From: Epinephelus fuscoguttatus
Taxonomy: Eukaryota > Chordata > Actinopteri > Perciformes > Serranidae
NCBI RefSeq assembly: GCF_011397635.1
Contig: NC_064767.1
Span: forward strand, 22,184,537 to 22,248,536
DNA length: 64,000 bases
Reading direction: 5' to 3'
Shown piece after piece: positions 1-57,600 of the stretch (positions within the stretch are counted from its first letter, which is position 1; each line of letters starts with the position of its first letter). The notes under the pieces were generated by a model. The model saw only the letters and a list, made by a program, of their open reading frames with translations. It did not search any database and was not told the origin of the DNA. The translations under genes were made by a program, and so were the position numbers.

Positions 1-1042
1 TGCCACTCGCCTCTGTGGGCATGATACTGTAGTTCGTAGACAGTCTGTAAACACTGTCGATCATAAAGTGTTATTATTTTGTATATCTTTATCGAAACTG
101 TGGCTAGCTTCCCGTCGTCCTTTAAGGAATACAAAGTGCTGGCCTTGTCACAACGCCCTGTCCTGTTTCAGCAACAGGTCTGCTGTTCGTCTTCTGAACA
201 ACGACAGCAGAGTTTTCACTCATTTTAAATGGCTCCTTTTGCAGTTGGTCGACGCTGCAGTTTTCTCTTCTGCCAACAGGTTTTGATAGAAACGGGCCGT
301 GACTGAGGGAAAGGGCTCCTATTGTCCATTTTGATTATATGAGAATAGGGTTGGGAGGGCAGGGGGTCATAAAAGTAACAGTTTACCAGTGTAAAATTTG
401 TATGTGAGATACATAAGATTCAAAACTAATAAATCATAATAAGTTCCTTTGATGCTTTGTGTCCTTTTTTTGTTGCACAGATCATATTTGTGAGTTTGTC
501 TTGAACTGAAACTTGCAGGTCTTTCATCCCTGTCCTGAGACAAGTGTTCCTGTTGTGACAAATAAAAGGAAGATTATGTCAGTACACAAACAGGTTTGGC
601 ACTGTTAGCATAACTGATAGTGTTGTGGTCATGAACGTTTACAAGCTTTGATCTGTAGTGTTGCATTATGCCTGAAACAAGCCCTTGACACATGGGAAAT
701 GGCATTATACACTTATATCAATTATGTATTTTGTGTGGGAAGTGTATGAGCTAAAGACGTGTTTATAAATGTAGAAAAGCAATTGTTAATAAACTATAAT
801 TTCAGATTTTTTGCATGTTTTGGTTCCTTCGACAGCTACGCATTTAAAAAAAAATGGACGTAGCAGTTTTTCTATTTTTTATTAGTATATTTATTTATTT
901 AGTTTAAATGACCTTTATTGTTTGTTTATTTACAGGCTATATATAAATGTTAAAAAATAAATTATTTAATTTAATTTAATTTTAACATCTTCGTCTGAAA
1001 AAAGAAAAAAAAAAACATCGCCCGGGAAAAGGCGCACACTGA
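1..1042. other. Upstream flank of npm3, no recognised gene
   Basis: I recognise no coding exon here. The sequence is AT-rich and has AATAAA hexamers at 561-566 and 788-793, so part of it could be the 3' UTR of an unseen gene to the left. Both strands are broken by frequent stops, and the open frame at 68-286 shows no domain or motif I know. Confidence 0.4.
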
Positions 1043-1115
1043 TGACGTCACATGCATGCTGTACAGTTTGCGACGCGCTTGTTGTTTTTCGAGGAGGGCT
1101 AATTTCTCTATAAAG
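1043..1115 (+). promoter_or_regulatory. npm3: npm3 core promoter (CRE plus TATA-like box)
   Basis: A full palindromic cAMP-response element, TGACGTCA, sits at 1043-1050. A TATA-like TATAAAG sits at 1109-1115, about 40 bases before the npm3 ATG. The interval has more CpG than the AT-rich sequence to its left. CREB/ATF binding is inferred from the motif only. Confidence 0.55.
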
Positions 1116-1151
1116 TCTTAACAGCAAACCCAACGTCACAGCTTTGACAAG

Positions 1152-4100
1152 ATGTCTTATCACGACGAGGAGAGCTCGGACATCGGACCGGTCGGTCAAT
1201 CCAAGTTGGAGAGCTTCCTGTTCAGTAAGAACCATTGAAACACAGTTTATCAGTTCAGCTCAGGTGGCGCACACGTGGGTCTCCTCTGTGGTGTGTCGAC
1301 AGTGAAGAAGCTGCTTTGATGTTTAGTGCACTAATTTACATGCAATAAAAAAATGCCATTAAAATCCTGCTGGTTTTGATGTGTCTTCCAGGCTGCGAGC
1401 TGTCCTCTAAAGTACCTTTCTACACTTTCCAAGGAGACGAAGAGGAGGACCTGGAGCACTTCCTTGAACTTAGAACAGTATGTACAGTTGCAGCAGAGTT
1501 TGTATAATCCCACTCACTGCGTGCACCACTTCAACGCAGGATTCACATCAAAGTGTGTATTTAAATATCTGAGGCTGTTGCACCATAGTGATGTGTAAAA
1601 TCAGGTAAACCAGGTTTGAATAAATGTCAGCTGACTGAATTCTTCTGATTCCTGCAGGTGTGCCTGGGAGAAGGCTGCAAAGAGGAAAGCAATGTGGTGG
1701 AGGTAACCGCCATGAACCACCAAGGAAAGACTATTTCAGTGCCCATCGCCAACCTTCACACCAGCTGTCTGCCCATGGTACAGTACAGTGACTTCTCTCT
1801 ACGTGCACATTAATGAACAGCACATGGTAGAGACGTGTCTTAACCGTTACCTTCTTTATCTCAGGTGAGTCTCGGAGAGTTTGAGCTGAAGGCGCCGGTG
1901 ACCATCCGGCTGAAGGCTGGGACAGGACCAGTCACTGTCAGCGGGTTACACCTCATAGGTAAGCCCCCCAGTGCAACTAATGGCCCACTGAGAATATATC
2001 TGCTGTATGTGCTCCGTAAGGTTTTATCAGAATACAGTTAATGTTGTTCTCTACGACATTCAGCATTTTTATCAGACCAATAACTCACATTCTTTAAAAA
2101 ATAAAAACAGTCACGTGGGTACACTGCTTTAGAACTGAAACAATGAGGCCTAGTCCACACGAACACAGGTATTTTTAAAACCGAACTTTTTTGGCCTCCA
2201 GTTTTTAAAAAATCTGCGTCCATATGAGCGGTGTAATAAAAATACCTCCGTCCACATGACACCGCAAATTCCACTATCAAGCAATGTAATACACATGCCA
2301 AAGCAGTAGGTGGCAATATAACTCCTAACTGTAAGGCCATTGTAGCCAATCAGAAGGCAGTAAAACGTCATTATCGGAAAAACAACAACAAGCGTACTAT
2401 TATGCAGCAGGAGCAGTCTCCGTAATAGCACACTCTTGCGCCTCTCTTGCTGGATGTGGTTGAGTAGCGTTAGTTGTATGTTACAGCCACAAAGTGCTGA
2501 TATGCTGCTAAATAGCAGCAGTATTTTGTTTAGTTCCATCCTCAAATTGTCTCTCGCACACTCTGGATCGGGTAATAACACAGCTGTTTTCTGTTTACGT
2601 CGCACATTGTGACGTCATACAATGGAGACGAGACAAAATAACTGCGGTTATCCTGTCCACACATGACTACTGACACCGGACTTTTCCAAAAAGTTCACCC
2701 TGGACTCCGGTGACAAATAACTCCGGTTGCAGGGGCCCAAAACTGCGGTTACGTGTGGATGAAAGGCCAAACCGTGAGCAAAGAGTCACAGTTTTATAAA
2801 TACCCACTTTGGTGTGGACAGCCCCTGAGTTAGTTTATGCCCTCATGACCAGTTTATGCTGTTTTATTGAAGTCTAGATTTCTAATGAATTGTATTTATA
2901 CTATATAATATATAATTTCTACAATGTGATTTTAAAAAACTGTTGAATCCCTTTTAAATTTGGAAGATTGATTTCCATTAAAACCACATTTTTTTTTCTC
3001 CCTTGAAATAAAAGTTAATGAAGTTGATTCAATTCTCAGTTCTGTTCCCCATGACGTTACAGTGGTGCACGTTCATGCACGCACAAGCATGCCTATACAC
3101 AAGCCAGGGAAACAGAGCCTGTGATTCCCATGGCATTTTTTCATTGCTCTGATTTGCGCATGTACATGCATACACGGTTCTCATAGCATTTTTTCATTTC
3201 CACTGATTCAGATGTCTTTCAATATAACGGATCAAAGAGAAGTTCAATCCCCTCCGCGTAAAATCAGATATCAACATGGACTCATGCCCCGTCGATCCAA
3301 CATCAACATAATCGGCTCTCCCACAACAATTTCAGCACAGCGAATTGCGAAGTGCAAAAAAATCAAAATAATGCCGGGTAGAGCATGAGCTTGTGTATGC
3401 AGGTGCAGCCGCTCTAAACTTAGAAATATAGCCAGCTCCAGGAATGTTAATTTCTTAACTGTGAGAGCAATCATGTAGGCACATCAGTTTTACTTTCGTA
3501 TTTCCCGATCCCGTTCGGCAGCTCCTCCTTCGGCCTCTTCCAGGAACCAACCCGGCTCGGCAGCTCTAGGCCCTGATGCCTCCGCCGCCGAACCCAAGCC
3601 CCTCGAACCGAGGCAGGCCCACTCCGTGACTCCAGCCAGTGGCTCCCGCAATTCAAGCCCGGACTGTTTAGCCTCCTATACTCCAGATGAGGTTTCTGAT
3701 TCAGTCTGCTCATCTGATGAGGAGTGGGTACCACCGCCAAAAAAAGACAGCTCTGAGGACAAATATTCCAGCTTTCCCGGAGATTATAAGATGGAGAATG
3801 AGGATGATAACCTAATGGAGACTGAGGGGATAAAACGGGTCTCCAGCCCGGACTCTTTAGCCTCCTCTACCCCAGATGAGGTTTCTGATTCAGTCTGCTC
3901 ATCTGATGTGGAGTGGGAACCATCGGCAAAACAAGACAGCTCTGAGGACGAATATTCCAGCTTTCCTGAAGATTATAAAATGGAGGATGAGGATGATAAC
4001 CTGATGGAGATTGAGAGGATAGAATGGGTCTCCAAGAACAAGAGCATCAAGTGGTCACCCTCTGCTGAGCAAATGTATCGTTATGTGCAGGCTCCCACAA

Positions 4101-7100
4101 AACCTGTCCCAGGGCTGACAAAGTATGCCAAGAGAAACATAACGGACCAGCTGACATCCTGCTTGGATTTATTTCTGACGAATGACATGATCCAGCTGAT
4201 CCTCAAAATGACCAACCTGGAAGGCAAGCGGACTGAAAATCATTGGAAAGACATCACTGAGACGGAGCTGAGGGGTTTCCTGGGCCTACTGCTGCTGGCG
4301 GGGGTGTATCGTTCCCGGGGAGAAAGCACCCTCAGCTTGTGGGAGGAGCCGATAGGCCGCCCGGTGTTTCGTGGTACAATGTCCCGCAAAAAATTTGAGT
4401 TAATTGCCATGAAACTCCGGTTTGATGATAAACTGGCCCGGCGAAAGCGGCTCAGTGACAACAAGCTGGCCGCCATTTTGCCCATATGGGAGCCGTGGGT
4501 TCAGCGGCTCTCTCACATGTTCAACCCAGGGGCGGACGTTTGTGTCGACGAGCAGCTGGTTGGCTTCAAGGGGCGCTGCAGCTTCAGACAGTACATGCCC
4601 AGCAAACCAGCCAAGTATGGTATAAAAATCTGGACCCTGGCCGACGTGTCAACATCCTACGCCTGGAACATGGCCATCTACAGCGGCAAGGAGGAGGCAT
4701 CAAGAGAGGTCGGCCAGGGGAAAAGAGTGGTGCTGCAGATGACACAGGGGCTGGAGGGACGCACTGTCACCATTGATAATTTTTTCACCAGCTACGAGCT
4801 TGGCACGGAGCTCCTGAAAAGAAAAATGGCCATGGTCGGCACAGTGCGCAAAGGTAAACCTGAGCTCCCTCCCCAACTTGTCAATGTGTTGGGCAGAGAA
4901 GTGCTCTCCAGCATCTTTGCTCACACAGCGACCCACACTGTGGTGTCGTACGTACCCAAGAAAGGCAAAAACGTGGTGCTGATGTCTACAAAGCACAGAG
5001 AAGCCTCCATCAGCGAGGAGGTCCACAAGAAGCCAATGATTATTCTCGATTACAACAAGTCCAAGGGCGGCGTGGACAACTTGGACAAGGTATGTGCCTG
5101 AAATATATTTAGGGCTTTTATTATTCAGTACTTACTGCAGTTACGTGAAGGCGTTACTTAAAGAATGAATTTGGTTGTGATGAGCAACAATTTTTCCGCT
5201 TGTCCCCCCCTCAGTGTGTGGGCACTTACAGCTGCCGTCGGAAGAGCTCCAGATGGCCCCTGACGCTGTTTTACAACATGCTGGATGTTTCTGCTTACTA
5301 CTCGTACGTCCTGTGGACCTGCCTGCACCCAAACTGGGAAATCAAAAAGAAATACCGCCGCCGCATCTTCCTGGAGCTGCTAGGGAAGGAGCTGGTGATC
5401 CCTTGCATCCTCCAGCGTGAGCGGATTCCCCGCGGGCCGAGTGCCGCTGCTTTCGTTCAAGCAGCCCAGGCAGCCATGGTGGAGGAGAAGGAAGCGCGCA
5501 GCGAGGATGCCAAGGAGGCCAGAACCTCTGCAGAGGTGCCTCCTCTGTCTCCAGGAGCAAAGGCACGACGACCTTGTGAATTGTGCCCAGAGAGCATGAA
5601 GAAGAGCAGGGTGCGCAACGTCTGTGCCAAGTGTGGCAAGTTCCTGTGCAAGGACCACACATGGAAAGGCTGTGGGACGTGCCTTGCAGGAGGACAGTGA
5701 CTGATAGAGGACAGTTTGTCCTAAGTGTACATAGCTAGTTCTTTAGAAAAACATTTAAATAAAAAGAATAAAAAAAACCTGGAGGAATTGAGCAAAAATT
5801 TATATTTTACCAGGGGGAGCATAGCATGACATATTGTGATCATGAGAGGAAATGAAAGGGCTTTTTAAAAATCTAACATCGCACCAAAAAAACAAAAAAA
5901 ACAAATCAGTGTTGTGGGTTATGATTGACCCTCGCCAGACTGAGATAATAACAGTGAAATAGTCTCATTATCTGTTAGTATGTTGAAAATGTTTCACTAG
6001 TTATATATATATTTTTTCCCAACAAATGCAAATAGTGGTATACGATACAAACTGGCATGTAAAGGTTTAACATTTGGTTAAAAAATGATTTAAATTAATT
6101 AAACAGTTTAATAACAAAACATAATAACGAATAAAAACAAACCTGGAGGAACAGACAAAAAAATTAAAGAAAAATGAATGTTTTTTTCTTAGCAGCGCTC
6201 AAAGGTTGAATTAGCTCATCAACAAAAATTTAAAATCATTAAATCAATTAAGTTATTTTTAAGCAAAAATATCAGTCTCTGGTTTCAGTATTTAAATGCG
6301 AGTTAGTAGTTGTTTTTTCTTAGCTTAAGTTATTTTTCTCAACTTAGACCTTTTTGAAATCATTTGGTGGCTGTGGCTCAGAGGTAGAGCGGGTCATCCA
6401 CTCATTGGAAGATGAGTGTTCGATCCCCTGCTTCTCCAGTCTGCATGCCTAAGTATCCTTGAGCAAGATACTGAACCCCACATTGCCCCCGTCGGCTGTC
6501 CATCAGTTTGTGTGTTAAAGCTGTGCAGCAGGTGGCACCTTGTACGGTAGCCTCGGCCACCAGTGTGTGTGAATGGGTGAATGTGACTCGTAGTTCGTAA
6601 GACTAGAAAGTGCAGGTCCATTACCATTTACCAACCAGTTAAACAAAATAAAATAGTGGGCAGCTGTTGCGCTGATCATTGATGCTGCTGTGTATGTCGA
6701 AAATGTAATCCAATTACCTGACAACCAATGTGTTGCTTTGTAATTACCCTCAATAGATGCAGTAAACTTTTGTTTCCCTGCATAATGGTGTAATCGTTGG
6801 GCAACAGTTGGATAACATTTTGATTCTTATGATTCTGAAATACTCAGTTTCTTTATTCAGTTTCTCTATAACTTAATCTCACCTACATGAAAAAGTGAAA
6901 TGCATCTTTGGACCATCAAATGTCAGATTTCTTTGTTAAGATCCAAGACCTTTGACACTTTTTATCCGATTTCTGGTAAGTGTTTTATGTGTATATTGTA
7001 AGTTATTTAACAATCTGCCATGCACATTTATCAATACTTTTATAATTAGACACCTTTTGCTCTCATCACTGGTTGTAATGAGGGCGTGCAGCTGCATATC

Positions 7101-7342
7101 ACTAACTACGCACGAGGTCAATTATAAAGGCAGTTTAAATAAACTGATGTTCTGACCTTTATAATTAAATACCAGGATTCATTTAATTCAAATGTTTTAA
7201 CTTGGTCGTCTGTGTTTTTGCAGCCTCACAGGTCGAAGAGTCGGACATGTCTGATGAGGATTTCGACGATGATGATGAGGAGGAGGAAGAGGAGGAAGAC
7301 ATCACCCCCATTAAACCAGCGAAGAAGAAGCAGAAGCAGTAG
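1152..7342 (+). CDS. npm3: Nucleoplasmin 3 (histone chaperone), five coding exons
   Basis: Coding exons: 1152-1224, 1392-1477, 1658-1777, 1865-1958 and 7224-7342, all with GT-AG borders and matching phases, giving 163 residues. The order is a short acidic N-terminus, the nucleoplasmin core beta-barrel (about residues 20-125, with CELSS, VCLGEGCKEE, NVVEV, VPIANL and GPVTVSG), then an acidic Asp/Glu tract ending in a basic PAKKKQKQ tail. Family members assemble as pentamers and bind histones and ribosomal factors in the nucleus and nucleolus. The SFLFSCELS start and short acidic/basic tail fit NPM3 rather than NPM1, which is longer and has a C-terminal nucleic-acid-binding domain. Human NPM3 is about 178 residues. 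Intron 4 (1959-7223) is swollen by transposons, including a piggyBac gene on the same strand. Confidence 0.9.
2147..2827. mobile_element. hAT-like non-autonomous element in npm3 intron 4
   Basis: The ends are imperfect inverted repeats. The left end (2147-2184) begins GGCCTAGTCCACACGAACAC and runs into GGTATTTTTAAAAC. The right end (2787-2826), reverse-complemented, reads GGGGCTGTCCACACC then GGGTATTTATAAAAC. No transposase frame lies between, so this is a miniature element. A related left end occurs at 32431, showing a dispersed family. Assignment to hAT rests on the general look of the ends; a clean 8-bp target duplication was not found. Confidence 0.65.
3479..5700 (+). CDS. piggyBac (PGBD-type) transposase, two exons, apparently intact
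   Basis: An open frame runs from 3479 (after a TAG at 3476-3478) to a donor at 5089/5090, then continues in phase 0 from 5215 to a TGA ending at 5700; the intron is 5090-5214. Counting from the GTG at 3626 the product is 649 residues. The catalytic aspartates of the DDE/D fold are present at about D308 (CVDEQLVGFKG), D384 (TIDNFFTS) and D484 with D487 (GGVDNLDK), with spacings close to those of canonical piggyBac. The C-terminus has a Cys/His-rich zinc-binding module (CELC...CAKC...CKDH...CGTC). The acidic N-terminus is a tandem duplication of 63 codons. No stop or frameshift was seen in the catalytic domain. The first in-frame ATG is only at 3791, so the true start may lie in an upstream exon. 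AATAAA follows at 5758-5763. Confidence 0.85.
3479..6066 (+). mobile_element. piggyBac-type DNA transposon, right end candidate at 6066
   Basis: The transposase gene is followed by an AT-rich 3' flank. A plausible right terminus lies at 6066, next to TTAA at 6067-6070: the reverse complement reads ACCTTTACATGCCAGTTTG, resembling piggyBac terminal repeats. I could not find a convincing matching left terminus between 2830 and 3478, so the left boundary given is only where the open frame begins. The insertion is sense-oriented inside npm3 intron 4. Confidence 0.5.
6366..6635 (+). repeat. tRNA-derived SINE, fish type
   Basis: The head resembles a tRNA promoter, with an A-box-like TGGCTCAGAGGTAGAGCGGG and a B-box-like GTTCGATCCC. 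It is followed by the familiar fish SINE body (CTTGAGCAAGATACTGAACC, then TTGCCCCCGTCGGCTGTCC) and the tail GTCCATTACCATTTACC. It is diverged and is not a functional tRNA gene. Confidence 0.8.
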
Positions 7343-7683
7343 GCGGAGAGGTCACTGATTGGTTTTTGGAAAGGCTCCACTCACTCACTGATTTGTTTTT
7401 AGGAAATACGTTTTTTTGTACCGGACTGACGCATCTTACAGAGTCACCACTTCTTCCACACAGCCAGGTGAATGCTTAGTGTGGCAGCTGTTAGGTAAAA
7501 GCGCTGTGGGAGGAAGTAACATCATGACGGACTCCGACGTTCACTTAGAGAAGAACTGTTTTTCCTGATAAATGCTACCCAGTGTTTTATACTGTATATG
7601 ATACAGTCACCACTGACAAGGATTTATTGCACCAGTGGATTCTTGTACTGTTTATAGATACTGCTCTTGTAAAAGTAAACTCC

Positions 7684-7726
<43 letters not shown>

Positions 7727-8005
7727 GTGCGTATGTACTTGTCAGACAAAACAAGTTTCCAGATTAATCATAATTCCAGCTGAATGGTGCAATTACACGA
7801 CTCACCTACAGTTTACTTCATGTTCTTGGCGCACAAGAGTATCTCCACTTCCAGATGTTTGTAGTTCCAAAAATACTGTTTTCTATGTGATATGTCAGAA
7901 ATGTGAAGATTTTGTACTTACAATGAATGCAAGAAAACATTTGTTTGTGTCTTCATTTGTCTTCCCTTTGAAATCATGAATAAAATAGTAACTTTTATAC
8001 AGTTT
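7343..8005 (+). other. npm3: npm3 3' UTR
   Basis: Non-coding sequence follows the npm3 stop codon and ends near an AATAAA signal at 7979-7984. It contains the GT microsatellite at about 7686-7732. The exact cleavage point is not visible, so the right edge is approximate. Confidence 0.5.
7686..7732. repeat. (GT)n microsatellite
   Basis: A nearly uninterrupted GT dinucleotide tract of about 45 bases lies in the presumed npm3 3' UTR. Open frames through it are simple-repeat artefacts. Confidence 0.95.
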
Positions 8006-8169
8006 ATGTACCAATATGGTCACTCAAGTTTAGTCGCTTCTTTGAAACACAACACATTGAGAAGATAATAATTTAGACACATGTAGACAAAAGCCAGCAT
8101 TGTGTTTAAGTAGATTTCAAGTAAAATCAAAATCACCTAAATGGAAGCTCATTGAGAAAATAGGTGTAT

Positions 8170-9486
8170 GGGTAAGTTGGGTATTTTTCAACCTGGACAC
8201 TATTTTTGTGTCAAAGTGACAAATGGAGACAACAGTTTTTGAAAGTGGTTGAGTATAGAGCCAAAGGGTTACTGCCAGCAGCCAAAATACAGGCTGCAAT
8301 TCAACCACTCGGGGGCCCTTGTGCACCATCACTTGACCTCTAAAAGTGCTTGTTTTTGCCACTGACAGGCTCAGATTATCATTACGAGTGTCTAACAACA
8401 TTATTGAGACACAGGCCTCATTGTTAAAGAGTAAGATCCTTTTTCTTAACCAGAAACACCCCCAAAAATTGCAACTGACATTTCACTAAGCCCCGCCCCT
8501 TTGTGATGGTCTGACAAGCTGTTGGAGTAAGGATGGAGCCCACACTGTAACTAACTGCACTCCCTGTAGAAATATATTTTTGTAAAAATGAAACAGTGAT
8601 TCCAGAGAGAAGCAGACAGAGGGGTCTACAGTCTGTGTTAGAAGGATATATCCAGGATGTCAAACTGACTCAGCAGCAACAACAGGTTAAAAAGACAAAG
8701 ATAGTTAGAAGCTAAAGCCGAACTATAGGCTACAGATCACAGTGTAAAAGTGAACCACCACATCACTGCTGATCGCCACAGAACACAATGAATATATATT
8801 CAACCAGCTGTGTGGCATCGCAGTGTGTGCAGATGAACGGTGTTTGGCTTCAACCCTGTACTGCTGCCAGCACCCGGACCTCAATCAAACCCTGAACAGT
8901 GTAGGGTTAGCTAGCTAGCTACTGAAGATATAACCTACTGAATGTATACACATGCTGCTTTTGCTTTTTAATGATTATAACAGTGAGAAAAAGACTGACC
9001 CTGCTGTACAGGAACCAGTGAAGGGAAGCAGGGAAACTTTGCTGATATTCAACCAGCTGTGTGTCATCGCAGTGTGCGCAGATGATTGTTGTTTTTTCCC
9101 TGGAGATCCCTGCCCGTCTGGTGGTGGAGGTCTGGGTGCTGGCAGTGGTACAGGGGTGAAGCCAAACACCGTTCATCCGCACACACTGTGATGCCACACA
9201 CAGCTGGCTCGATGTCAGCAAAGTTTCCCTTTATATTCATTGTGTTCTGTGGCGATCAGCAGTGATGTGGTGGTTCACTTTTACACTGTGATCTGTAGCC
9301 TATAGTTCGGCTTTAGCTTCTAACTATCTTTGTCTTTTTAACCTGTTGTTGCTGCTGAGTCAGTTTGACATCCTGGATATATCCTTCAAGCACAGACTGT
9401 AGACCCATTTTCAAAAACTGTTGCAGCCATTACTCACTTAGACACAAAAACAGGGCTGCGGCTAAAAAATACCTGAGTAACCCTTT
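8170..9486. mobile_element. Large foldback element (Kolobok-like), with an arm deletion
   Basis: The left arm starts near GGTATTTTTCAACCTGGAC (8180-8198). Its mirror on the right is read backwards from a TTAA at about 9484-9487. Positions 8635-8815 are almost exactly the reverse complement of 9227-9407, and 8180-8250 pairs with 9408-9480. The right arm lacks about 390 bases present on the left (roughly 8250-8635), so the element is an asymmetric palindrome. The terminal phrase TATTTTTCAACCTGG is shared with the element at 11091. No transposase is visible. Confidence 0.65.
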
Positions 9487-10084
9487 AAGGGGTAACTTGA
9501 GTAGACTTTTCCAACCTGGACTGGTTGCAGTGCTGAATTCCATTAGATGGGTCATCAGGCTCAAAAGAACAATAAGCAATAGAAAAACTACAAAACAGAA
9601 CCATGTGCAGAGAGCTAGACTTATGAATAAACACAAATATTTTCCCGGAAAGCACTGCTCCCTGAGTCAGCTGCTGCTTTGTAAAATTACTGACCCAGCT
9701 GAGAGTAAAGTATTAACAGAGGTTAGCTCATCGGAGTGGCTAAACGGTGACTGCAAATAGCCTGATATCAGTTAAAGATTCATAAAGGCAGATGTGGTTG
9801 TGTCAGGTTACAGTTTATCATCTTAGACATATACATTGAGATCTCATCTGCACTGTACAAACACCCTCATGTAAACATGATCTTTGCAAGGCAGCTGTAA
9901 ACAACAAACCAAGAGCAGTAGATTATGTAACTGGTTCATCTGCAGATTTCTCATTAGAGCTCCTGGTTGAAGGAGACACTTCACACTGAGATGCAATGGA
10001 GCTCCTTAACTCTAATTCTTGTTATGAAGCTATAGAGCTAGACAAGTACAAAGACAGATCTTCCTCATAACATATACTCCACAT

Positions 10085-10775
10085 TTCTTTACACTGGTTT
10101 CCCATCAGGTTCAGGATTCACTTCAAGATACTTGTTCTCACGTATAGAGTCCTCCACGGTCAGGTACCTGAATACATCAGTGATCTCCATCCATATATAT
10201 CGTCAGTGGGTCCCTTAGGTCTTCAGACCAAGACCCTGGCTGTCCCCCACTCCAGACTGAACACAAAAGGTGATCATGCCTTTGAAGTCGTGGCTCCAAC
10301 ACTATGGTACTCTCTGCCATTAGGTTTACTGTCTGCGGTCTCTTAAGAATTTTTTATAAAACAACTGAAGACCCATCTTGCTGTCAACTCTGAAACACAT
10401 TATCAAGTGGAATCAAACTGATTACAGATTTAAAATCCTTCACAACAAAGGTCAAATGCTGGTTAAAAGAAAACCAGAGCTGTACCCACTTTAAGCTGAA
10501 TGCGCTCAAACATTTAAGGGGTATTAGTGTGAGTGTTTTGGTGTGTTGTAGTATGTGCACAGTGGTATGTCTATTGTAGTTGTACTGTGGGATATGTTGT
10601 GATGTTTGTATTGTGGTATATGGGTTGTGGTTTATGTATTTTATTGTATTTTTTTATATTTATATTTATATACTGTCTGTCCTTTTTATTGTGTTGTTAT
10701 CTTGCCGAGGGTACTACACATAATTTCGTTGTGCAATGCACAATGACAATAAAGTCTTCTATTTTTCTATTCTTT
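10085..10775 (+). mobile_element. L2/Maui-type LINE, truncated 3' end
   Basis: Positions about 10103-10350 translate as the conserved C-terminal part of a CR1/L2 reverse-transcriptase ORF (HWFPIRFRIHFKIL, then LAVPHSRLN, GDHAFEVVAPTLWYSLPL). The typical 3' tail CACAATGACAATAAAGTCTTC lies near 10738-10758. The 5' part with the catalytic domains is absent, as is usual for 5'-truncated insertions. The frame breaks after about 10350, so the copy is dead. Confidence 0.75.
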
Positions 10776-11090
10776 TATTGTGCCTGCCATGTTTATAGTG
10801 TATTGTGGTTTTATGATTTTTAAACTGTATATTTTTGATAACATTTTAGGCCTACATGTAAACGCCCAACTAGGGACAAGAGATGAAAATCAGCAATAGC
10901 TATAAACTCTCTGTGCAACACATCAATCCCATAACTCTGTATTGGAACTATGTTAAATTGCTATATCACTAAAAAGTCATCATGGCGTCAGAAAATAAGG
11001 CCTGTTTTCAGCTTTGTTACAGTGCATTTCCAGTTGATCCATGAGGGTTTTTTTAATTTTTATTTAATTTTATTTGTTTATTCTGCTTAA

Positions 11091-12078
11091 AGGATAACTT
11101 CGGTATTTTTCAACCTGGGCTCTATTTCCCCATGTGTATGTGTGCGTATGATTCATAGGTACAACTCGTTCTAAAATTGGTTCAATATTGAGGGAGGTGG
11201 ATACAGCCGGGAGCCGCGAAACGAGCTAAAACGGCAATGGGGGCAAATGCGTCCTGTATAAGTTTGCGCATAAAAAGTGCTTTTTTCGCCACTGACCGGT
11301 TCAGATCACCAGTGCTATCTCTGTAAATAGCATACTAAACGTTTCCCTTACCCTTCACTTGCTCTGGGCTGTGATGTCATCTCACGAGAGCTTTGCTTGT
11401 TGCCGGAAGAAAACAGAGGAGCCATGCAGAGCGCCACTCTGAGTGGCGCTGGTTGTCCCGGAGTACAGCTGGGAGTTTTACTGCATCGACTGAAAACAAT
11501 GGTTCGTGTTTGTGCTTATCCGATGTCGCGCAACACCCCGTACAGCTTTCATAGGCTGCCTTTGTCGGACAGCGAGATGCTGAAGTTGTGGCTAGTTGTG
11601 CTACAAATGGATGCTAACACTCGTGTCCAGACACTGCGCCTTGTAGACCATCGGGTCTGCAGTGCTCATTTCTCCCAAGACAACTACTGCCAGCCAAAGA
11701 AGAGAAGACATCCAATCCCAAAACACCTCTTCCTCAAGAAAACGGCTGCCCCACGAGTAGAGAGAGCTACAGACACAGTGGAGCAAAGCTCTCACAAGAT
11801 GACGTCACACACAGCCCAGAGGTAAAGGAAACGTTTACTATGCTATTTACAGAGATAGCACTGGCGATCTGGTCAGTGGCGAAAAAAAAAAAACACAACA
11901 CGCAAACTTATACGGGACGCATTTGCCCCCGTTACCGTTTTAGCTTGTTTCGTGGAACCCGGCTGCATCCGCCTCCCTCAATACTGCACCAATTTTAGAA
12001 TGAGTTGTACCTATGAATCATACGCACACATACACATGGGGAAATAGGGCCCAGGTTGAAAAATACTGAAGTTATCGT
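11091..12078. mobile_element. Kolobok-like transposon with ~300-bp inverted ends and TTAA target site
   Basis: TTAA flanks both ends (11087-11090 and 12079-12082). The left end begins AGGATAACTTCGGTATTTTT; the right end reverse-complements to ACGATAACTTCAGTATTTTT. The two arms stay matched for about 300 bases (11091-11397 against 11781-12078). A THAP-domain ORF fills the centre. TTAA target sites plus THAP domains are known for the Kolobok superfamily, hence the assignment. No catalytic transposase domain is present, so it is non-autonomous. Confidence 0.75.
11499..11825 (+). CDS. THAP-domain ORF inside foldback element
   Basis: The frame encodes 108 residues from an ATG at 11499. It resembles the N-terminal THAP zinc-finger module of transposases: VCAYP near the start, FHRLP, a Trp in LKLWL, and CSAHF. 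The second Cys of the C2CH signature is not in its usual place (CAYPMSRN, where family members usually carry a second Cys just after the Pro), so metal binding may be lost. The C-terminal part overlaps the right inverted repeat. With no catalytic domain following, it is either a transposase stub or a free DNA-binding protein; expression is unknown. Confidence 0.55.
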   Translation: MVRVCAYPMSRNTPYSFHRLPLSDSEMLKLWLVVLQMDANTRVQTLRLVDHRVCSAHFSQDNYCQPKKRRHPIPKHLFLKKTAAPRVERATDTVEQSSHKMTSHTAQR

Positions 12079-22566: not shown

Positions 22567-25500
22567 TTACTTGGTCCCATAATGCTTGGTTGAAGACTGG
22601 CCGTACAGCCCGTAGAAGTCAGGGTGCCGGGTCGCCTGCGAGGCCTCCATCAGTCCCCTCATGGGGAAATGCTGCAGTGGCTGGCTTGCAGGTAGCGTGG
22701 CATGTGGGGGAAACTCCTGAGACGTCATGGAGGGGAAGGAGTCCGATGCTGGGTACGGAGGCCGGGCGCGAGCAGCGGGTGCCCTGGAGCAGCAGCAGTT
22801 ATTCAGAGTGCACATCAGTACTTTCCTCCCTTCGTACATGGCTTGTTGCGAGGCACCTCCACTGGGGAAATGCGACGGGGGGAATATGGTCCCTGAGTGG
22901 TGGCTAGAGCTGGACCCTAGACCCACCATGTGATGGGCTGCAGAGTCAAGGAGTCGGCTATGGCCGGGGCCACCATTTGGATTCTGGGAGAGGCCTTCAG
23001 AGGAATACATAGATGATGCACGATGGCTCTGATCAGCCAGGAAGGGTTTTTTGCTGCTGTAGATCAGGGGTGGAGGATCCTGGGAGGCGGCGTTTGCTGC
23101 ATTACTCTCCAGGAAAGCCATGCCGTATTTCCTTTTCTGTAGTCCTGAACCAGTCCCCATGTGGGAGCTGGCAGAGCTGCTGTGAGACTGGACAAGCTCA
23201 AGGATGGGTGCCTCATTGAACGGTTCTGAGAGGGGCAAATGGTGGTGGGGCAGAAAGAGATAAGGGTTAATTCTGACCATACTGACATACATATCTCAAA
23301 ATACACTTTTACTAGTTGCAACTTTTTCTCACCTTCCAGCATTTTTCGCATGTTCTTTTCTCTTGTTGAAAGTTCGGTTAGCAAGTGATGAGAGTTGAGC
23401 TGGCCCACTCTGAGTGGAGGGATAGCACTAATCAGGAATGAGTTTGACCTAAAAAAAAAAAAAAAAGGAAGAGGGACACATTAAATACTTTGGACCAGAT
23501 TCAATGAGCAGTTTGCACCCTTGGTTGAGATGCATTCTGCACCTTGACACCTGCGTTTTACTGCAAGACTGGAAGCATACTTTGCTTGTCAAATGACCTA
23601 CATACCTTAAATTAGAACCGCACTATATGAGGAAAATATGCCATATGCAATACTGTTGTTGAATGATATTCGCTGTGATAAATACAGGTGGTGAAGTGTA
23701 CTCAGTTCTGCCTTTCTGCTCCTTTCAGTGTGCTGCTAAATACAAAAAATGACTGAATGAAAATGACTGGCTGAATCAAAAAAATGAAAGGATATTAAGT
23801 CGAACATTCTTCTATTGAACAGACTGAACGTTGAACTCAACACAAAAAGGCACCAATAAAAAAAGGAATGCAATTTTCTATGGATGTTCTCCTTTAATTA
23901 ATCCAAAAATGCCTGACTGCACTATCACAGCCCTTTGCAATGTGTTCACAGTGGAGTTGACATAACGATGACGCCAAAAAATACGATACCGTGCAGCCCT
24001 ACCTTACATGCAACAGTTAAGTATACAACTCTGCTTCATGCATACATATCTTAAGTAGGATTATGCGAGTAATAAGATAAAAAATACAGGGTGGGTGACT
24101 GCATATTCCTCTACTAGAGCCCACCTAAACTGCACAAGTATATGAAAAATAAATTGTGGTTGTGAAGGGAATGAGAGTCAGTGCACCAAGAAAGCATACA
24201 GGAAAGCATCAGCAGTTTAGTTCAAAGTAATGAACAACTTCTTAGAAAGAAGAGAGAGCAGTAATATTAAATATCTACAATATATAACTGTTTAATAATA
24301 GCAAACAACACTTCAGTACTTGCTGACTCGCTGCTTTTGTAAATGAGTTTCTAATTACACAAAGATTGCAGACACTAAATTGCCGCGCACTTCTGTGTAC
24401 CTTCTCACCCAGACTGTCTAATGTATGATTAACATTAAATTAACCATGTACCAGTTAAGTGAAATAAAACACAAGAACAAATGCGTACCTGTCCATTAGC
24501 AGCTGGTAAGGTTTTGTGTTCTGAAAAAGAAAACAAGATGCACAAGTCTTTCAGATCCACTTTTAAACAGCTACTGAGGAGAACAGAGGAACACACAGAC
24601 AGTGGGCCTGCTGTGATCTGTCTCTGCACATTGTGTATATGCATCAATGTTACAGAAAGAGCTTTGTGTGCGACAACGCTTTGACAACATTTGATTCTGT
24701 GGATGCAAACACTGTAAAAACATTGCCAGTAGGTGTGTGAATCATGCGTGTCTGTGTGGCGGTACAGACACGAGTGCATTTGTACCTTCATGAAGTTAAT
24801 GCCGTCTGCTCTTTTGAAGAACGTTTGTACTGAGCTCAGGAGTTTTTCTGCTTCCTGGCGCCTCTCGTTGAGCTGCAAAACCTGCTGGGAGTTTTTCCTC
24901 ACATACATGGTGTAAGTGCTCTCCAGCATCTGCATGGTTTCAGCCTGGTTCGCCTCTAGCAGCGCATGCATCCTCTGATACTGGGCTCTGGCACGCTCCT
25001 TCAGATCAGACACTGCGTCCTGTGCAGAAACAACAAGTTGGGGGAAAGGCTGATTTACAAACACACACACGCTCACACCAATTATACGGGCATGCCCTCT
25101 CTGTTATGTCAAAATGAATCAACCAGCAATGGAAAGTGTGACTCAGCTTTTTGTCATGTCTGAAAAAACAAAATTACTAACAGGTTGTCACTATTCTTTC
25201 TTTAATCTGTCTCCAAATCCTCCAAAGGTGCAATATTAAATCTCTCTATTGCCAATTTAAACAAAGAATTTAACATTTTTAGCATTCAGCATAAAAAAAG
25301 TAAAGACCTGGAATAAAGTAAAAGTGTGCTTCAGTACACAGTAATGAAACGAAGTGTTCTCTTTCTGTAGGTTAAAGTGTATTTTTTCTTACTTCATTTT
25401 GTTGAATCAGTGCTTTTTGAAGTGGGGGAAGTCATTTGCAAAAAGCATTTTCCACCCTAATGCACCAGCCATTCAAAGCTAGAGATAAATTACATTTTCT

Positions 25501-31500: not shown

Positions 31501-34500
31501 GGGACGACATTACCATTATATTACTCCTCCTTTCTCGTCTTAAAATTACCAGCAAGCCTGCAAAAGGTTACTGTAAAAGTCTCCTTGGAGAGCCAAAGAT
31601 AACCAAAGATATGAACATAGCTACATTGGTTTTTCCCTTTTTGTTTATCCCAAAAGCAACAAGAGTGCTGCCAGGGGAATTTAAAATCCTTTTACCAAAA
31701 TAGACCACAGCTCTGTCAAGGAGAACGACCTCTTAGCAAGAAATGTAGAGAAGCCACTCTGGCCTCAAATTACTCGAAGAAATAAAGCAGCACACAAGAA
31801 GCCTAACTTTTGGCCATTGCCACATTTATCAGTGTTAGAGTGCACTCTGCGTCTGAAGGCCCAAGCATGGACAGTGTTAATTTGAGAAGAGCCAGGAACT
31901 CTGACTCCTGGATAACTCCATTTACCCTGCGAACATACAGTTGTGAAGGAACAGAAAGATGGGTGGGTGTGTGCATGTGTGTGTAGAGAGCAGCTGTGGA
32001 AAGGGCTGAACAGACATCTTTTGTCCCAATAATAGCTCTGAACCAGAGCAACAGTTTGCACCAAAGACTTCAACCGATTTAGAACTTTGTGATCCACACA
32101 CTGGAGAGAAATGCGTCTGTAACTTTCCCGACTGGAATAATACGATCACCAAACGTATCAACAAGACCACAACACGGCAGATGCTAAAACTAATCTGATT
32201 CTCACATCCACCCCTCAGCGATAGGGAGAAACAGGGAAGAAATGTGTATAAGGCAGTGTGGGTGGTTGTTTTTTTTACACCTTGCCACTTACATTAGACT
32301 TGTGAGAAAGCGAACCGAGATAACGTACAGACCTGAGGACAATACAGAAGTGGACGCAGCCATGACAACATGGTCTTAAATGCATCCTGAGGTCAACCCT
32401 GCCAAGGCAGTTCACTTTCCACCTACTCTCGGCCTAGTCCACACGCACACGGGTATTTTTTACAACATAGCTTTTTCTGTGCATGTTAGTCTTTTGTCCA
32501 CATTCAAACTGCATTGTAGGTCACTGACCAGAGTCCTTTTGGAAACTCCTTTCAGGGTAAAGATTCTCAGAAAGTCCATTTTCAGTGTTGACGTGTAGAC
32601 AGAGAAAACTAGGTTTTGGCATGAGATGTCAGAGTGTGCTTTGTGAGGCATCACAAATGAGGCGACATTTCATGCAATGGTGGACGTGACAAAAATAGTG
32701 CTGGCTCTAAGCTTGTTAACAGGACTTTTTACATGTTTGTACAGTTACTCGTCGGCTGTACTGAGAATCAGAGGCACCAGAATGTGCTACAGAGGCCACA
32801 TAGTAGCATTGTAGCCAGGTAGCCTTCGATAATAGCTTCTTTTTTTTTCGATTGGCCAACAACTTCATGTTCTTGAGGATAAAAATCGACGACTGGCCAG
32901 CTCACCCAGTGTAAAAGTCCATGGTATGTGTACTTAACTGTAGTTAAAAACCCTTTATTAATACATGAATAACCAAGGCGTTTCGATGATAACACACTGA
33001 TAAAGACTCTGGTCGAAACACGTTGGTTATCCATGTATTAATAAAAGATTTTTAGCTAGACTCTTTGCCCCATCCTTGAAGAGCACCTGATTTTTTTTTT
33101 TTTTTACAACTAACTACACAGAGCCTTAACCCAGCTCAGCACTAACTAGTTTTTCCTAAACTTCGTCTTCTTATGTGCGTAATTGGCCAACATGGCTTTG
33201 GGTAAGGGTTTTTTTAATCTACAATAGAGTTGGTATGATACCAATACCAGTACAAGAACTGCCTCCAATACTTAAAATGCTGGACTGGGTATCAACGAGT
33301 GCACGAATCTATGCACAGATCCGATACCACCTAATTTATCCATTACCTTTAAAGTAGTTTCACACCCAGATAAAATGGCAGAAATCAATTTGCTGCCTGA
33401 TACAGTAGCCTACACAGCAAGCTGCGCCGTGCAGCCATTGGCAACTACTGTTTCAGAGCAGTGAAGAAGAATTGATTTCCAGTAAATAGTAAGAACAGAA
33501 TAGAACGTCAAATTAAATAATAATAGAAAGGTCTATAGCATTTATTCTCTGTATGTATTTGTGAATGCTTTACAAAGAGTTTAACCTGAGTCATGCCATA
33601 CAATGACAGCAATCATTTCACCTTTATACAGGGAGTGTTTACGCAATGGGATCAGATCAGTACTTGGTATCAGCCGATACACAAGTTCAGGTATCTGATT
33701 AGGTATTGGGAAGAAAAAATGGTATTGAAACGTCTCTAGTTTTATGGCTGACTGTTGGTTTGGCATGATCCTGACAGCATTTCAATTGTGTTTTTGCATT
33801 GTCATTTTGACAGAGATTTTGGGGGGATTTTTTGGGAGAACGAAGGAGAAAAATGCCTATTTTCAAAAATGCCCATGTATGTTTGATAATCACATACTGT
33901 AGAATCTATTTTCCTCTTTTCATTCCTTCTTTGTCTTCCTGAAAATTTCCAACCCCTGAAAATGGTTGAAATGCAAAGTTATAAAATTGCTGCCTTGTAA
34001 AAATTTATACAAATCACCACATTTCCTTCTCAAAAACATTATGTCAGATCATTTATGGGCCTCTACAGCCCTACCCGTGTGCATTTCCTCCTGAACAACT
34101 CCTGAAACTGATCAGGGTAGCTAACATAAACAAACCACATGTGGATCCACCCCCACTGCACAGGGGTCACTGTTTCCGGTGGATGCAGATTGCATCACAG
34201 CACTTACCCGAGGGCACAGGGCGGCTAATGTGAAGGCGTGGCAATGTGGAATGGGTGGTTTGATCAAGGTTAAAAGCTGTGTGGGACGTATGCCTGCATG
34301 TGTGTGCTATCATCTACCCCCCTGAGGGGTGGCTTTCACCTGTCCAGTCCTCTCACATCAGAGTAGATTAAAGGCAGAGGCAAAGAGAAGAGGCCTTTAT
34401 AGACTGCTGAACTGAAAGAAATGTTTGCTTTCAGGAATCCACGCAGGAAATCAAATCTTTTGATAGTCACCTGCCTGTCAGCTGATCGTTCCAAGTGAAT

Positions 34501-35109
34501 GGGTGAGTAAAAGGGTATGTGTGGGTGCGATTTATGTACCTGCATTTGTATGCGTTGCGTATCCACATCGCAGACTGTGTGTCTTTGGTTAGTGCAGTGA
34601 GAGATGCAGCAGAATGGACACAGAGCCACCTGCTCTTCTTCACAGTGGAGCAGCCTGTACTCCTCATGACTGGGACAGGTCCAAGCGCTCAGCTCCTCGG
34701 CGTCAACTAACAGGTGTCCCGGGGCTGCACACGGCTGCTGTAGGTGCGTCTGGATGTGAGTTTGGCAACAGGGCTCCTTACAGCGCAGACAGACTTTCCG
34801 CACGGGCAGCGGGGGGCCTCGTCTGCACAGGACACAGTGCAGCACAGCAGGGACCTTCTCAGTGTTCAGCGCGTTAAATCGCTTCACTATGTTGGCGAGC
34901 TTAAAGTTCTTCTCCAGTGTGGGCTTCTGCTCGTAGTCATGGTTGCACTCGGGACAGCGGACCGCAGCGCTGTCTTTGGCCCAAGCCTCAGAGATGCAAC
35001 CCTTGCAGAAGTTGTGCTTGCATGGCAGCTGGATGGGTTCTTCGAAAACATTCAGGCAGATGGGACACAGGAGCTCCTCTTCGAAGCAGTTCTTCCAACT
35101 TTCATCCAT
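22567..35109 (-). CDS. trim8: TRIM8, RING-type E3 ubiquitin ligase, six coding exons
   Basis: Coding exons, in transcript order: 34540-35109, 25669-25764, 24786-25019, 24489-24520, 23333-23448 and 22567-23225. All have GT-AG borders and phases agree, giving 568 residues (human about 551). The RING zinc ligands are C15, C18, C30, H32, C35, C38, C52 and C55. Two B-boxes follow (about 90-190), then a coiled coil spanning exons 2-3, and a Ser/Pro-rich tail with the TRIM8-specific GRKVLMCTLNNC and the C-terminal YGQSSTKHYGTK. TRIM8 has no SPRY domain, as here. It acts in cytokine, NF-kB and p53 signalling in cytoplasm and nucleus. The ATG at 35109 (MDESWKNCFEEEL) aligns with the human start; the longer frame upstream begins with TTG and is not used. 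A minus-strand acceptor at 35143-35144 suggests a separate 5' UTR exon. Intron 1 (25765-34539) carries many repeats. I cannot tell which teleost paralogue (a or b) this is. Confidence 0.93.
27812..28250. mobile_element. Non-autonomous DNA element (TAGGGCTGGGTAATAT type) in trim8 intron 1
   Basis: The left end is TAGGGCTGGGTAATATG. The right end, reverse-complemented, reads CTAGGGCATCATTATC. The inside is rich in cATATCacgat-type phrases (for example CACGATATTTTTAGG and ATCACAATACAACGATATCC), typical of a common fish repeat, possibly hAT-derived. There is no open frame. Confidence 0.5.
29414..29790. mobile_element. Probable hAT-like miniature element in trim8 intron 1
   Basis: The left end GGATGGGTATCGGGAATCAA and the internal TTTAAGGTATTGACCCAA look like the dispersed fish GGGTATCG family. 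The right boundary is estimated from GGTATCATAATCCTTT. Weakly supported. Confidence 0.35.
29808..29930 (+). repeat. Dispersed-repeat fragment, unclassified
   Basis: The stretch contains AGATGAGAGGTGAAACGTCT and ACCTGGATGACTGAGAATCT, phrases I recall as highly repeated in fish genomes. I cannot assign the family or the full length. Confidence 0.4.
32431..32640. mobile_element. Partial second copy of the hAT-like element seen in npm3
   Basis: It starts GGCCTAGTCCACACGCACAC followed by GGGTATTTTTT, matching the left end at 2147. No matching right end was found, so this copy is truncated or strongly decayed. Confidence 0.5.
32954..33045. repeat. Inverted repeat, 33-base arms
   Basis: Arms 32954-32986 and 33013-33045 are reverse complements with a few mismatches (TTTATTAATACATG at the outer edges, GTTTCGA and TCGAAAC at the inner edges) around a 26-base spacer. 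It probably comes from a dispersed element. Confidence 0.8.
33225..33745. mobile_element. Degenerate DNA element in trim8 intron 1
   Basis: The outer phrases TGGTATGATACCAATACC and, at the other end, AGGTATTGGGAAG with GGTATTGAAACGTCTCTAG, plus internal CGATACC and GGTATC words, fit a decayed non-autonomous element of the GGTATCG type. Boundaries are approximate. Confidence 0.4.
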
Positions 35110-35141
35110 GACTTCAGCTGGATCCAAACTGATGCTGTGTG

Positions 35142-36060
35142 ACTAGAAAGAGCAAGAGAGTTAATTTCTAAACATGGATTACAGCTTCCTGCAGGGTGCT
35201 ATCTTTGAAATGTCACCCTTATGGAAATTAAGCCTACATATTTCTACTTCCAAAATGGCACAGAGAGATGTGTGACAAACTATTTAGAGGTAAATGCCTG
35301 TGAGGAGTAGATCATAATGGTACAGGAATAAGCAAATGGAGCACTAGCAGGCGACGACTGACTCCAAAGGCACAGATTAAGTCAAGTGTCCAACCAAGTG
35401 CAACCACAGTGAAACTTCGACAACGCACCCTCAAACTAGTTGCACGATAAAACAATTCACATTACGCACAATGATATTACAACATTTGGCTTGTGAGCTG
35501 GGGAATTCGCGACAGGACGGTACAAGCTGTGGCGTCTCAAAGCAAGTGACAACTTGCTACAGAATAACACTAGAAATGGGACTAATAAAATGTCACGCTG
35601 GGCTACACTGACATTTTATTTTCACGCGAGGACACTCTTTATAACTGTTAATAAAGCATTATAGCAGTGTAATAAAGCATATTAGGTGTGTTCTTATAGA
35701 AGAAAAGCAACGTTACCAACTATTTATTTTCCATGCCGTCGGCGGACTCAGTGCACCTATAATGCCGTAGAGCTTCGCATCCAGCCCGCGGTGAGATTCA
35801 GCTCCTCCGGTTAGGTTTTTGTGTCCGACGCAACGTTCAACACCGGGATTTTATAAAGATTCCCGGCTGGTGGTCGGCTCGTTTCGCTTTCCCGTCAACT
35901 CTCTGACTAATATTTAATGGTAAGTGCAGGCAGACTGTGAGTCGTCGGCTGGGAGCTCAGTGCTTCCACACCGACTGCCCCCCTCCGATAACGTGACCCG
36001 TCACAGAGTTGATACATAGACGGGGAGGAGCCGAGCGGAGGAAGGCGAGGAAACGGCCAC
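35142..36060 (-). promoter_or_regulatory. trim8: Probable trim8 5' region, CpG-enriched
   Basis: CpG density rises between about 35740 and 36060 (CCGTCGGCGGAC, GCCCGCGG, CGACGCAACG and others), against an AT-rich background. A minus-strand acceptor (TTTCTAG) ends at 35143, 34 bases before the trim8 ATG. A minus-strand donor near 35704 to 35710 (GTAACG) could end a 5' UTR exon. The promoter is therefore placed here by inference; no TATA box was identified. Confidence 0.4.
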
Positions 36061-54663: not shown

Positions 54664-57600
54664 TCAAGTTGCTTTTACAGTTTTAAAACGTAGGACTACT
54701 ACATGTCTCTGAAGTCCTTCTTCCCCGTCCCACCGGTGATCCAAAGAGAAAACACCCCTCTGCTCCACAAACGTCTCAAACAGGTGCAGCCCACCACCTA
54801 CACCAAAGTAGTGGGACTTGGTGGCGAGGTAGATGAGTCCATCTGGGGCGAGCAGTCTGTGGAGGGTCTCATGTAGCACTGGGTAGTAAGCAGTGTTGTA
54901 TATTGTCTCTGAGGTGAATATAATGTCATATTTGGGATGTGGGTTCTCCTTTTGAAGCAGAGCAAGAAACGTGCTCCAGTCACCGGAGAAAAATCGACAC
55001 TTGGCTAGTACTGGGTTTTGGGATAGGTCAACGGCTCTTATCTTAGGGGGTGGGTCGTCATCTTTTACCTCCTGTTTCGCTTTCATCTTCTTACAACCAC
55101 CTTCCTCCTGGATTTTCCCCTTTCCCTTCCTTTCTTTGTCATCTTCACTGTCCACTTCATCATCCTCTTGGCAGTTAAGCATTACATTTGGCACTGTGAG
55201 CTGTTCAATAACTGTACTGTTATAATCTTGGAAGTGGACCTCCCTGGCTCCTCTCTGCAGAGCCAGTATTCCCAACAGCCCCGCGCCACAGCCCAAATCC
55301 AAGACCGCCTTCCCCCCAAAGGTCTCTCCGTCTTTCTCAATCAGCTCCAGAAGGTCGTAAGTGCACTCCCACACTTTCAGCCCCCCCTCGTACACGCCAG
55401 AGATGAGATCAGACCTCTGCTCAGCGGTGCGCGAGAGAATTTCCTCACCGTCATCTCTCTCGGAGGCTGTCTTTTCGAAAACCGTCTCATTGAGGAAGTG
55501 AAGAGGGGGAAGAGCTCCTATGGTAACTGTTTCAGTAACAGCATCCCTGAGGAGGAAGTGTGGGTCAGATGGCTGAACGTGCTCTTTGGCTTCTTTTGCT
55601 GGCTCTGCTGGTTTGGTATCTTCCTTCACCTGAAAAACACAAAACAGTGTGAATGATTGTGTGTGTGACAGGTCTGTGTGAATATATGACTACAATTCAT
55701 AGAAAACATGTGCCTCAAGCTGAAAATATCCCGGCTTGACAAACATTTGGAAGTACAGATATATAAATCAGAAAATATGCCTAGGATGTGACGCTGGAGG
55801 CAACTACTCACGGCACAGGAATGTTCAGATATAAATAATCATGGTGCTTTTGGGTGTTCAGAGGAATTTCCTACGAATTGTGGAGGTCATAAGTATGCTG
55901 TGTTGTGGGCTGTCAGTGTTTTGGACAGAAACACTGTTCATGTTTTATTAAAACAATTTTAATATCACTGTCACTCACTTTGGTACTTTATTGAGTTACT
56001 TTTAATTCCGATATCACTGACGTGAGGTTGAAACATTCACAAAACTAGACTACACTGACACTGGGTCCAAACTCCAAGTTTCAGCTGACATGACTCACGT
56101 GAGATCTGCTTTTGAGATTAATTTTGTGACATCAAATGAAGCAGATGATCTGTTATTCAGTCTGGGATCTTATGAACATGTAACAACTTGAATCTATACG
56201 AATGCATAGCAGTGCTGTCTTTGACTGGATATTAACTGGTTTACAATTATGCTATAGACTATCTACTTTATTTTGTTTGTTTGTACGTGTATTTATTAGT
56301 TACAAAATGCTCTTTACACTGTAAAATATGATCTATTAGAAAAGGACTGGATGACTGGCTGATGAATCTAAGACATGAGACTGTTACAAATCAACCATGT
56401 GATTTACTGTGTGACCGAAACACTGTTGCAAGTACAGCAAAACTCCAGATATCATGTGTGGCTTAGTCGTCAAACTGCTCATGTAGTCACACTTTCAGTT
56501 TAAATAAAAATTCCTGATTTTGTTTTTTTTCTTACATGCCTCTGAACTTTGACGTCAGACACTGCAATGTCGACTCACACAGTCAGCTATCAGAATGACC
56601 TTGTATGGTTTCTGTGATGACTTTTTATTGACATGCCTCTGCCCTGTGACATCATGGCTCATGGGCAAGGAGATTGTCAACCTACACTCTCTAGAGGAAG
56701 CACACCTACCTTACATTTCAATTTACATTGGTAACTGTGTTGAAATCATACAGTGGAACTTGCTTCATGCATAGTTCTTGTGTGTGTGTGTGTGTGTGTA
56801 CCCCTGACGATTTCTGGTCCATTCAACAGCATATTTTCCTACTACTATAACAGGAGACAGGTCTATATTTAAGCAATATTACGCTCGAGGGTGTGCTCAA
56901 ACGTCATTTGTGGCACTTTAGTGACGCGTATGGACCTCGGTGCAAGCGCCTCGGTCCTGACCGCATCACTGTTTTGCCACAAATGATGTCTAAGCACACC
57001 CTCGATTGTAATTGCGATAAAACAACTATTAACAGTAACAGCGTTGCCATGGATATGGCGGAGTAATATTTTTAGTGATGAGCCAGGTGTGCTGTTATGC
57101 TGATTTGAGCACAATTTAAATGTCTTGTCGACCAATCAGATTGCTTGGTCAGAACTACTTGTTGTATAATTATATTTGTATATTAGGCTATCTAATATTT
57201 TCAGGATTGTGAAGAGTTTTTCTTTAGATTTTAGGCCATATTTATGAATTCATATAGATCGTGTGTGTGTTTAGTATGAACCAAAGCAACAGCAGCAGCA
57301 GCCTCATCTTTTTTAAACAAATCCATCCATTTAATAGCCTTTTGGTTTTGCTCTGGCAGTTACAATGTTGCCATGTAATATTTTTAATGATGAGCCAGGT
57401 ATGCAGTTATGCTTATTTGAGCACATTCTAAATTTCTTATTGACCAAATAGATTGCTTGGTCGGAACTACTTGTTGTATAATCATAGTTGGATAAATCTT
57501 AAAATCAATACTCTTCAGTCCTCTGATTTAGTCTCAACTCTCCTCTGTAAAAGGAAATGTCTGTAAAGATAAATTATCTGTCATTATTCTAAATAAATAC

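Follow-up and report, generated by a model that had tools for sequence, protein, structure and literature searches.

A 64,000-nucleotide (nt) stretch of the Epinephelus fuscoguttatus genome (assembly GCF_011397635.1, contig NC_064767.1, forward strand, 22,184,537 to 22,248,536; hereafter the window, to which all positions refer) contains an npm3-like gene whose last intron holds a piggyBac transposase gene in the sense direction. Exon mapping, phase and splice scoring, in which splice sites and start codons were judged by vertebrate frequencies and rules from general knowledge and not by a fitted model, placed npm3 exons 1 to 4 on the forward strand at 1152–1224, 1392–1477, 1658–1777 and 1865–1958. 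Exon 5 (7224–7342, forward strand), which encodes the acidic tail and includes the stop, is in phase with exon 4, and its acceptor scores 5.65. The five exons and the 5,265-nt last intron (1959–7223) were mapped around the transposase, confirming the arrangement given in a preliminary description of this DNA, and the coding length through exon 4 is 373 nt, which ends that exon in phase 1, as had also been proposed. The exon 4 donor, TAG/GTAAGC, is good. The product matches Pfam Nucleoplasmin (E 5.7e-34) and has the nucleoplasmin core domain; the label npm3 is carried over from the preliminary description, and the Pfam match supports the nucleoplasmin domain, not the choice of paralogue.

The open reading frame (ORF) listing gave open stretches at 3479–5101 and 5149–5700 before intron removal, and this listing and a scan for in-frame ATGs agree that the frame open from 3479 has no ATG before 3791, as previously noted. 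The frame had been taken to encode a full piggyBac protein; it is open to its end, but it is split between two forward-strand exons. Exon A (3479–5089) includes ATG 3791 and the catalytic aspartate codons, and exon B (5215–5700, stop at 5698–5700) encodes the end of the DNA-binding region and the C-terminal cysteine-rich domain; a 125-nt GT-AG intron on the same strand (5090–5214; AAG/GTATGT ... CCCCTCAG/TGT) separates them. Pfam DDE_Tnp_1_7 was matched in frame 3479–5098 (E 1.9e-66), and exon B alone gave no Pfam match. The spliced protein from ATG 3791 aligns over residues 88–589 to residues 98–593 of the 594-residue PDB chain 6x67 (E 2.1e-75), labelled 'Transposase', which we take to be the Trichoplusia ni piggyBac enzyme. 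Removal of 5090–5214 joins exons A and B in frame, and this alignment then crosses the junction without a gap. The catalytic aspartate codons start at 4547 (DEQL), 4775 (TIDN), and 5075 and 5084 (GGVDNLD), corresponding in the 6x67 alignment to D268, D346, D447 and D450 (numbering from an excerpt of PMC2533014). The C-terminal cysteine-rich domain is present, with the alignment running to the end of 6x67, and 698 codons are open across both exons; from its sequence, the transposase is apparently intact. It shares with 6x67 the four aspartates, the cysteine-rich C-terminal end, a similar leader length and, when started at ATG 3791, a total of 594 residues, whereas its sequence is clearly diverged, a 63-residue unit of its leader is tandemly duplicated and an intron interrupts it.

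According to the excerpted text of PMC3902484, piggyBac elements are mostly without introns in the transposase domain, making the intron at 5090–5214 mildly unusual. The same excerpt describes the piggyBac-derived coding region of PGBD5 as interrupted by an intron, though PGBD5 has seven exons, whereas the transposase described here has one intron, at LDK/CVG, and keeps its catalytic aspartates. If 5090–5214 were retained, the protein would end ...DKVCA and lose its C-terminal DNA-binding part. Control by intron retention occurs in P elements, which offer an analogy for such retention.

Translation most likely begins at ATG 3791. The preliminary description held that an outside start codon was required; this requirement falls away, as ATG 3791 lies in a good context and yields a protein with the length of the best-matching PDB chain. 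The context tataagATGG is favourable by the Kozak rule. From this ATG, the acidic leader has a length similar to that of 6x67: 87 residues lie before the first aligned WS motif, compared with 97 there. The insect piggyBac leader is described in an excerpt of PMC9499001 as acidic, disordered and about 100 residues long, its deletion lowering but not abolishing transposition.

The duplicated acidic segment previously noticed near 3654 is a 189-base-pair (bp) in-frame tandem duplication within the leader, with copies at 3653–3841 and 3842–4030 that are 90% identical. Between the copies there are 19 differences, of which 14 are nonsynonymous and 5 synonymous; they fall 8, 6 and 5 times on codon positions 1, 2 and 3. 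The ratio of nonsynonymous to synonymous rates (dN/dS) is about 0.67 overall and about 0.57 upstream of ATG 3791. These differences are too few to show constraint. Codon scores in the transposase frame were computed with two training sets, one of 1198 codons, which includes the transposase body and is circular for it, and one of 684 codons taken solely from host genes. The scores were below those of shuffled sequences at 3479–3652 (z = −1.93 and −2.43), modest at 3653–3790 (1.74 and 2.14) and strong at 3791–4030 (3.97 and 3.77), and ranged from 3.57 to 6.75 in the transposase body. The stretch 3479–3652, which the preliminary description had treated as potentially coding, is rich in Pro, Ser and Ala and in GC, stayed open in 30% of mononucleotide shuffles and has no coding signal; nothing shows that it is translated.

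Among possible acceptors upstream of and within the leader, AG 3542–3543 (acceptor 3543) had the best score between 1975 and 3980 (6.45, in the top 0.44% of the 4066 forward-strand AGs). The real npm3 acceptors scored 3.88, 6.18, 8.02 and 5.65, and the acceptor of the transposase intron, 5214, scored 4.53; acceptor 3543 thus outscores that of npm3 exon 5. Exon 4 joined at 3543 is out of frame and meets a stop after 8 residues (TAG 3567–3569), giving a product of 132 amino acids, and exons 1, 1–2 and 1–3 joined there also stop early (32, 63 and 103 amino acids). The forward-strand stretch that follows, 3544–3652, is out of frame from exon 4 and is probably 5′ untranslated region of the transposase.

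Candidate acceptors in phase with npm3 exon 4 lie at 3521, 3563, 3635, 3686, 3704 and 3875. The AG at 3562–3563 (forward strand), which the preliminary description chose as the junction, does exist and an exon from 3564 would be in phase, but the site is weak (score −3.46): 36.6% of the forward-strand AGs equal or beat it, and 1842 of 2000 mononucleotide shuffles of 3465–3790 hold an in-phase AG scoring at least as high. As 9 of the 24 AGs in 3477–3790 are in phase with exon 4, and so many shuffles do as well, the presence of this AG carries almost no information. Acceptors 3686 (4.40) and 3875 (5.56) are equivalent forward-strand CAG/ATGAGG sites, one per duplication copy, and an in-phase site at least as good as 3686 arose in 144 of 2000 shuffles, so that 3686 is somewhat better than chance. 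Acceptor 3521 scored −0.73; a branch-point-like TTTAC stands 29 nt before it, and no AG intervenes. By the first-AG rule, this acceptor could compete with 3543. No branch-point-like motif was found 16–70 nt before 3563 or 3686, and the single motif before 3875 is followed by intervening AGs, though this is a weak test, since such a motif is also missing before the real acceptor 5214.

Downstream of the transposase, two AATAAA signals (5758–5772, forward strand) begin 58 and 67 nt past the stop. A candidate right end of the element, ACCTTTACATGCC adjoining TTAA 6067–6070 (6051–6070, reverse strand), has neither statistical support nor a matching left end. It resembles CCCTT, the start that one survey of piggyBac repeats reported as the most conserved (excerpt of PMC10813416). 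In the window, TTAACCCTT with at most one mismatch was no commoner than chance (14 observed, 19.2 expected). One search pattern was derived from the right end present in the window and altered in its first base to agree with the CCCTT start; its best match follows from how it was built and was set aside as no evidence. Pairing of TTAA sites in 1959–3660 with those in 5701–7222 over 18 nt yielded no convincing terminal inverted repeats, the best pair, which looks AT-rich, matching at 12 of 18 positions (no null was run). Two copies of a stretch of about 46 nt, 83% identical, also lie in the 3′ flank of the element, at 5759–5802 and 6121–6166. Upstream of the transposase, the CpG observed/expected ratio reaches 0.89 at 3151–3650, in the 98th percentile of a window whose median is 0.38, and is also high in the npm3 promoter region; a promoter would fit such a value, as would a young insertion with little methylation. 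A search of the window revealed no further copy of the transposase, and searches of the viral IMG/VR and prokaryotic GTDB genomes, non-animal collections in which none was expected, gave no relatives.

Considering these results, we propose that the locus probably carries a piggyBac copy with a PGBD3-like exon-trap layout and its own start codon in the last npm3 intron. The open frames, the intron placed by alignment, the catalytic residues, the phases and the relative site scores on which this proposal draws are shown by the analysis, whereas the promoter, the translation start, the outcome of splicing and the stability of the mRNA are inferred from them. In this scenario, a piggyBac-superfamily transposon copy would sit in sense within the intron, with its transposase in two exons translated from ATG 3791, and the 5′ part of the transposase messenger RNA (mRNA) would lie in the CpG-rich 3050–3650, produced from the element's own promoter or by npm3 transcription. 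The npm3 gene would normally be spliced around the element, from 1958 to 7224. With its acceptor-like sites and polyadenylation signal, the element may trap some npm3 transcripts; trapping at 3543 would give the truncated Npm3 core of 132 amino acids, from an mRNA that is probably unstable, and not a fusion protein.

Several points weigh against this proposal. The out-of-frame ATGs 3687 and 3717 open frames that pass ATG 3791 and run up to 3813, in the way of a scanning ribosome. The part of the protein-like duplication upstream of ATG 3791, 3653–3790, stayed open in only 8% of shuffles, and the protein probably began further upstream before the duplication arose. In the unduplicated ancestor, the start probably lay upstream of the unit; such a start may be ancestral, and the present transposase does not need it. 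Since 3686 and 3875, both in phase, score much like the real acceptor 5214, the trap sites can be ranked only loosely. Furthermore, mobility is unproven, as no left terminal repeat was found.

The preliminary description instead suggested a chimera, in which alternative splicing would connect npm3 exons 1–4 in frame with the element, so that the Npm3 core would be followed by the acidic leader and a full transposase. By our calculation, such a protein would have 808 amino acids via 3521, 794 via 3563, 753 via 3686 or 690 via 3875. The layout it invoked is present, as are in-phase acceptors, with an AATAAA 58 nt past the stop. The scores of 3686 and 3875 fall among those of the real npm3 acceptors and near that of 5214, few shuffles match 3686, and TTTAC precedes 3521 with no intervening AG. 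In addition, there is a human precedent: the authors of the CSB-PGBD3 work suggested that piggyBac elements owe their survival to acting as 3′ terminal exon traps, with an acceptor immediately before the transposase and a poly(A) signal immediately after it (excerpt of PMC2268245). The npm3 locus resembles CSB-PGBD3, as it appears in that excerpt, in having a sense piggyBac transposase in a host intron, acceptors upstream, a poly(A) signal downstream and the possibility of in-phase joining. However, the acceptor of CSB-PGBD3 lies in frame 7 nt before the first Met and the fusion mRNA was demonstrated (PMC2268245, same excerpt), whereas the best-scoring acceptor of the npm3 locus is out of frame and the part that would be trapped contains an intron. 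In-phase AGs are expected by chance, and branch-point-like motifs, in a weak test, were missing for 3563 and 3686 and followed by AGs for 3875. Both arguments for the fusion fail, since the transposase has a well-placed ATG of its own and the proposed acceptor is unremarkable. An in-frame npm3–transposase fusion is thus possible on this layout, though it is not favoured and we regard the chimera as unlikely. Among the papers listed in a literature search that covered few subscription papers, which included one on a Plasmodium nucleoplasmin, none reported this fusion.

A second alternative, which we consider improbable, keeps the N-terminus as the element's own and places an earlier start in an element-encoded 5′ exon within 2830–3480, spliced to 3522, 3544 or 3564. 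It would account for the older start before 3653 implied by the duplication, and the upstream region offers the CpG-rich stretch, a 58-codon ATG frame at 3212–3385 and a donor, CGG/GTAGAG at 3377, whose phase by arithmetic fits 3522 and 3564. However, donors in 2830–3560 all score low (best 1.26; −1.27 for 3377), though on this matrix the real npm3 donors also stay below 0.1 in three cases out of four, so that donor scores discriminate badly; the frame 3125–3385 has neither coding signal (z = −0.22 and −0.82) nor a Pfam match.

Domestication, in which selection would maintain an immobile transposase that serves the host, whether or not it is fused to npm3, is likewise improbable. The open codons, the four retained aspartates and the lack of a recognisable left terminal repeat agree with it, but a young copy would be expected to be just as intact, and the differences between the leader copies reveal no clear constraint there. 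Known nucleoplasmin cores are pentameric. It is very improbable that the element serves as a portable pair of 3′-terminal exons in which splicing from npm3 exon 4 to either equivalent acceptor of the duplicated leader, 3686 or 3875, would tether a histone-chaperone core to a catalytically complete transposase, with retention of 5090–5214 acting as an on/off switch that yields the form ending ...DKVCA, without the DNA-binding C-terminus.

The last npm3 intron contains two further stretches. The ends of 2147–2825, GTCCACAC and GTGTGGAC, look alike by eye, and this neighbour of the piggyBac copy may be a small non-autonomous DNA element; a 46-nt relative of its start was found at 32431–32476, and no inverted repeats of at least 14 nt were found at about 2150–2825. 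The stretch 6362–6610 (GTGGCTCAGAGGTAGAGCGG...), judged by eye only, is tRNA-like and resembles a short interspersed element. ARAGORN called no tRNA in the whole window, and Rfam at gathering cut-offs gave no match in positions 1–12000. Elsewhere in the window, there are a THAP-domain reading frame at 11331–11822 (E 5.6e-10), a RING-finger frame at 34336–35142 and a second frame at 24435–25103 (both reverse strand), which together presumably represent a TRIM8-like gene, and a methyltransferase-like frame at 54664–55689 (reverse strand; Methyltransf_16, E 3.5e-10), which we assume to be METTL18-like.

RNA data could separate the specific junctions from 1958 to 3522, 3544, 3687, 3876 or 7224. 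The npm3 locus shows how easily an in-phase AG suggests a fusion. If the in-frame join were true, it would add another vertebrate fusion of piggyBac with a host gene by exon trapping, one in which the catalytic residues are kept and tied to a chromatin chaperone.

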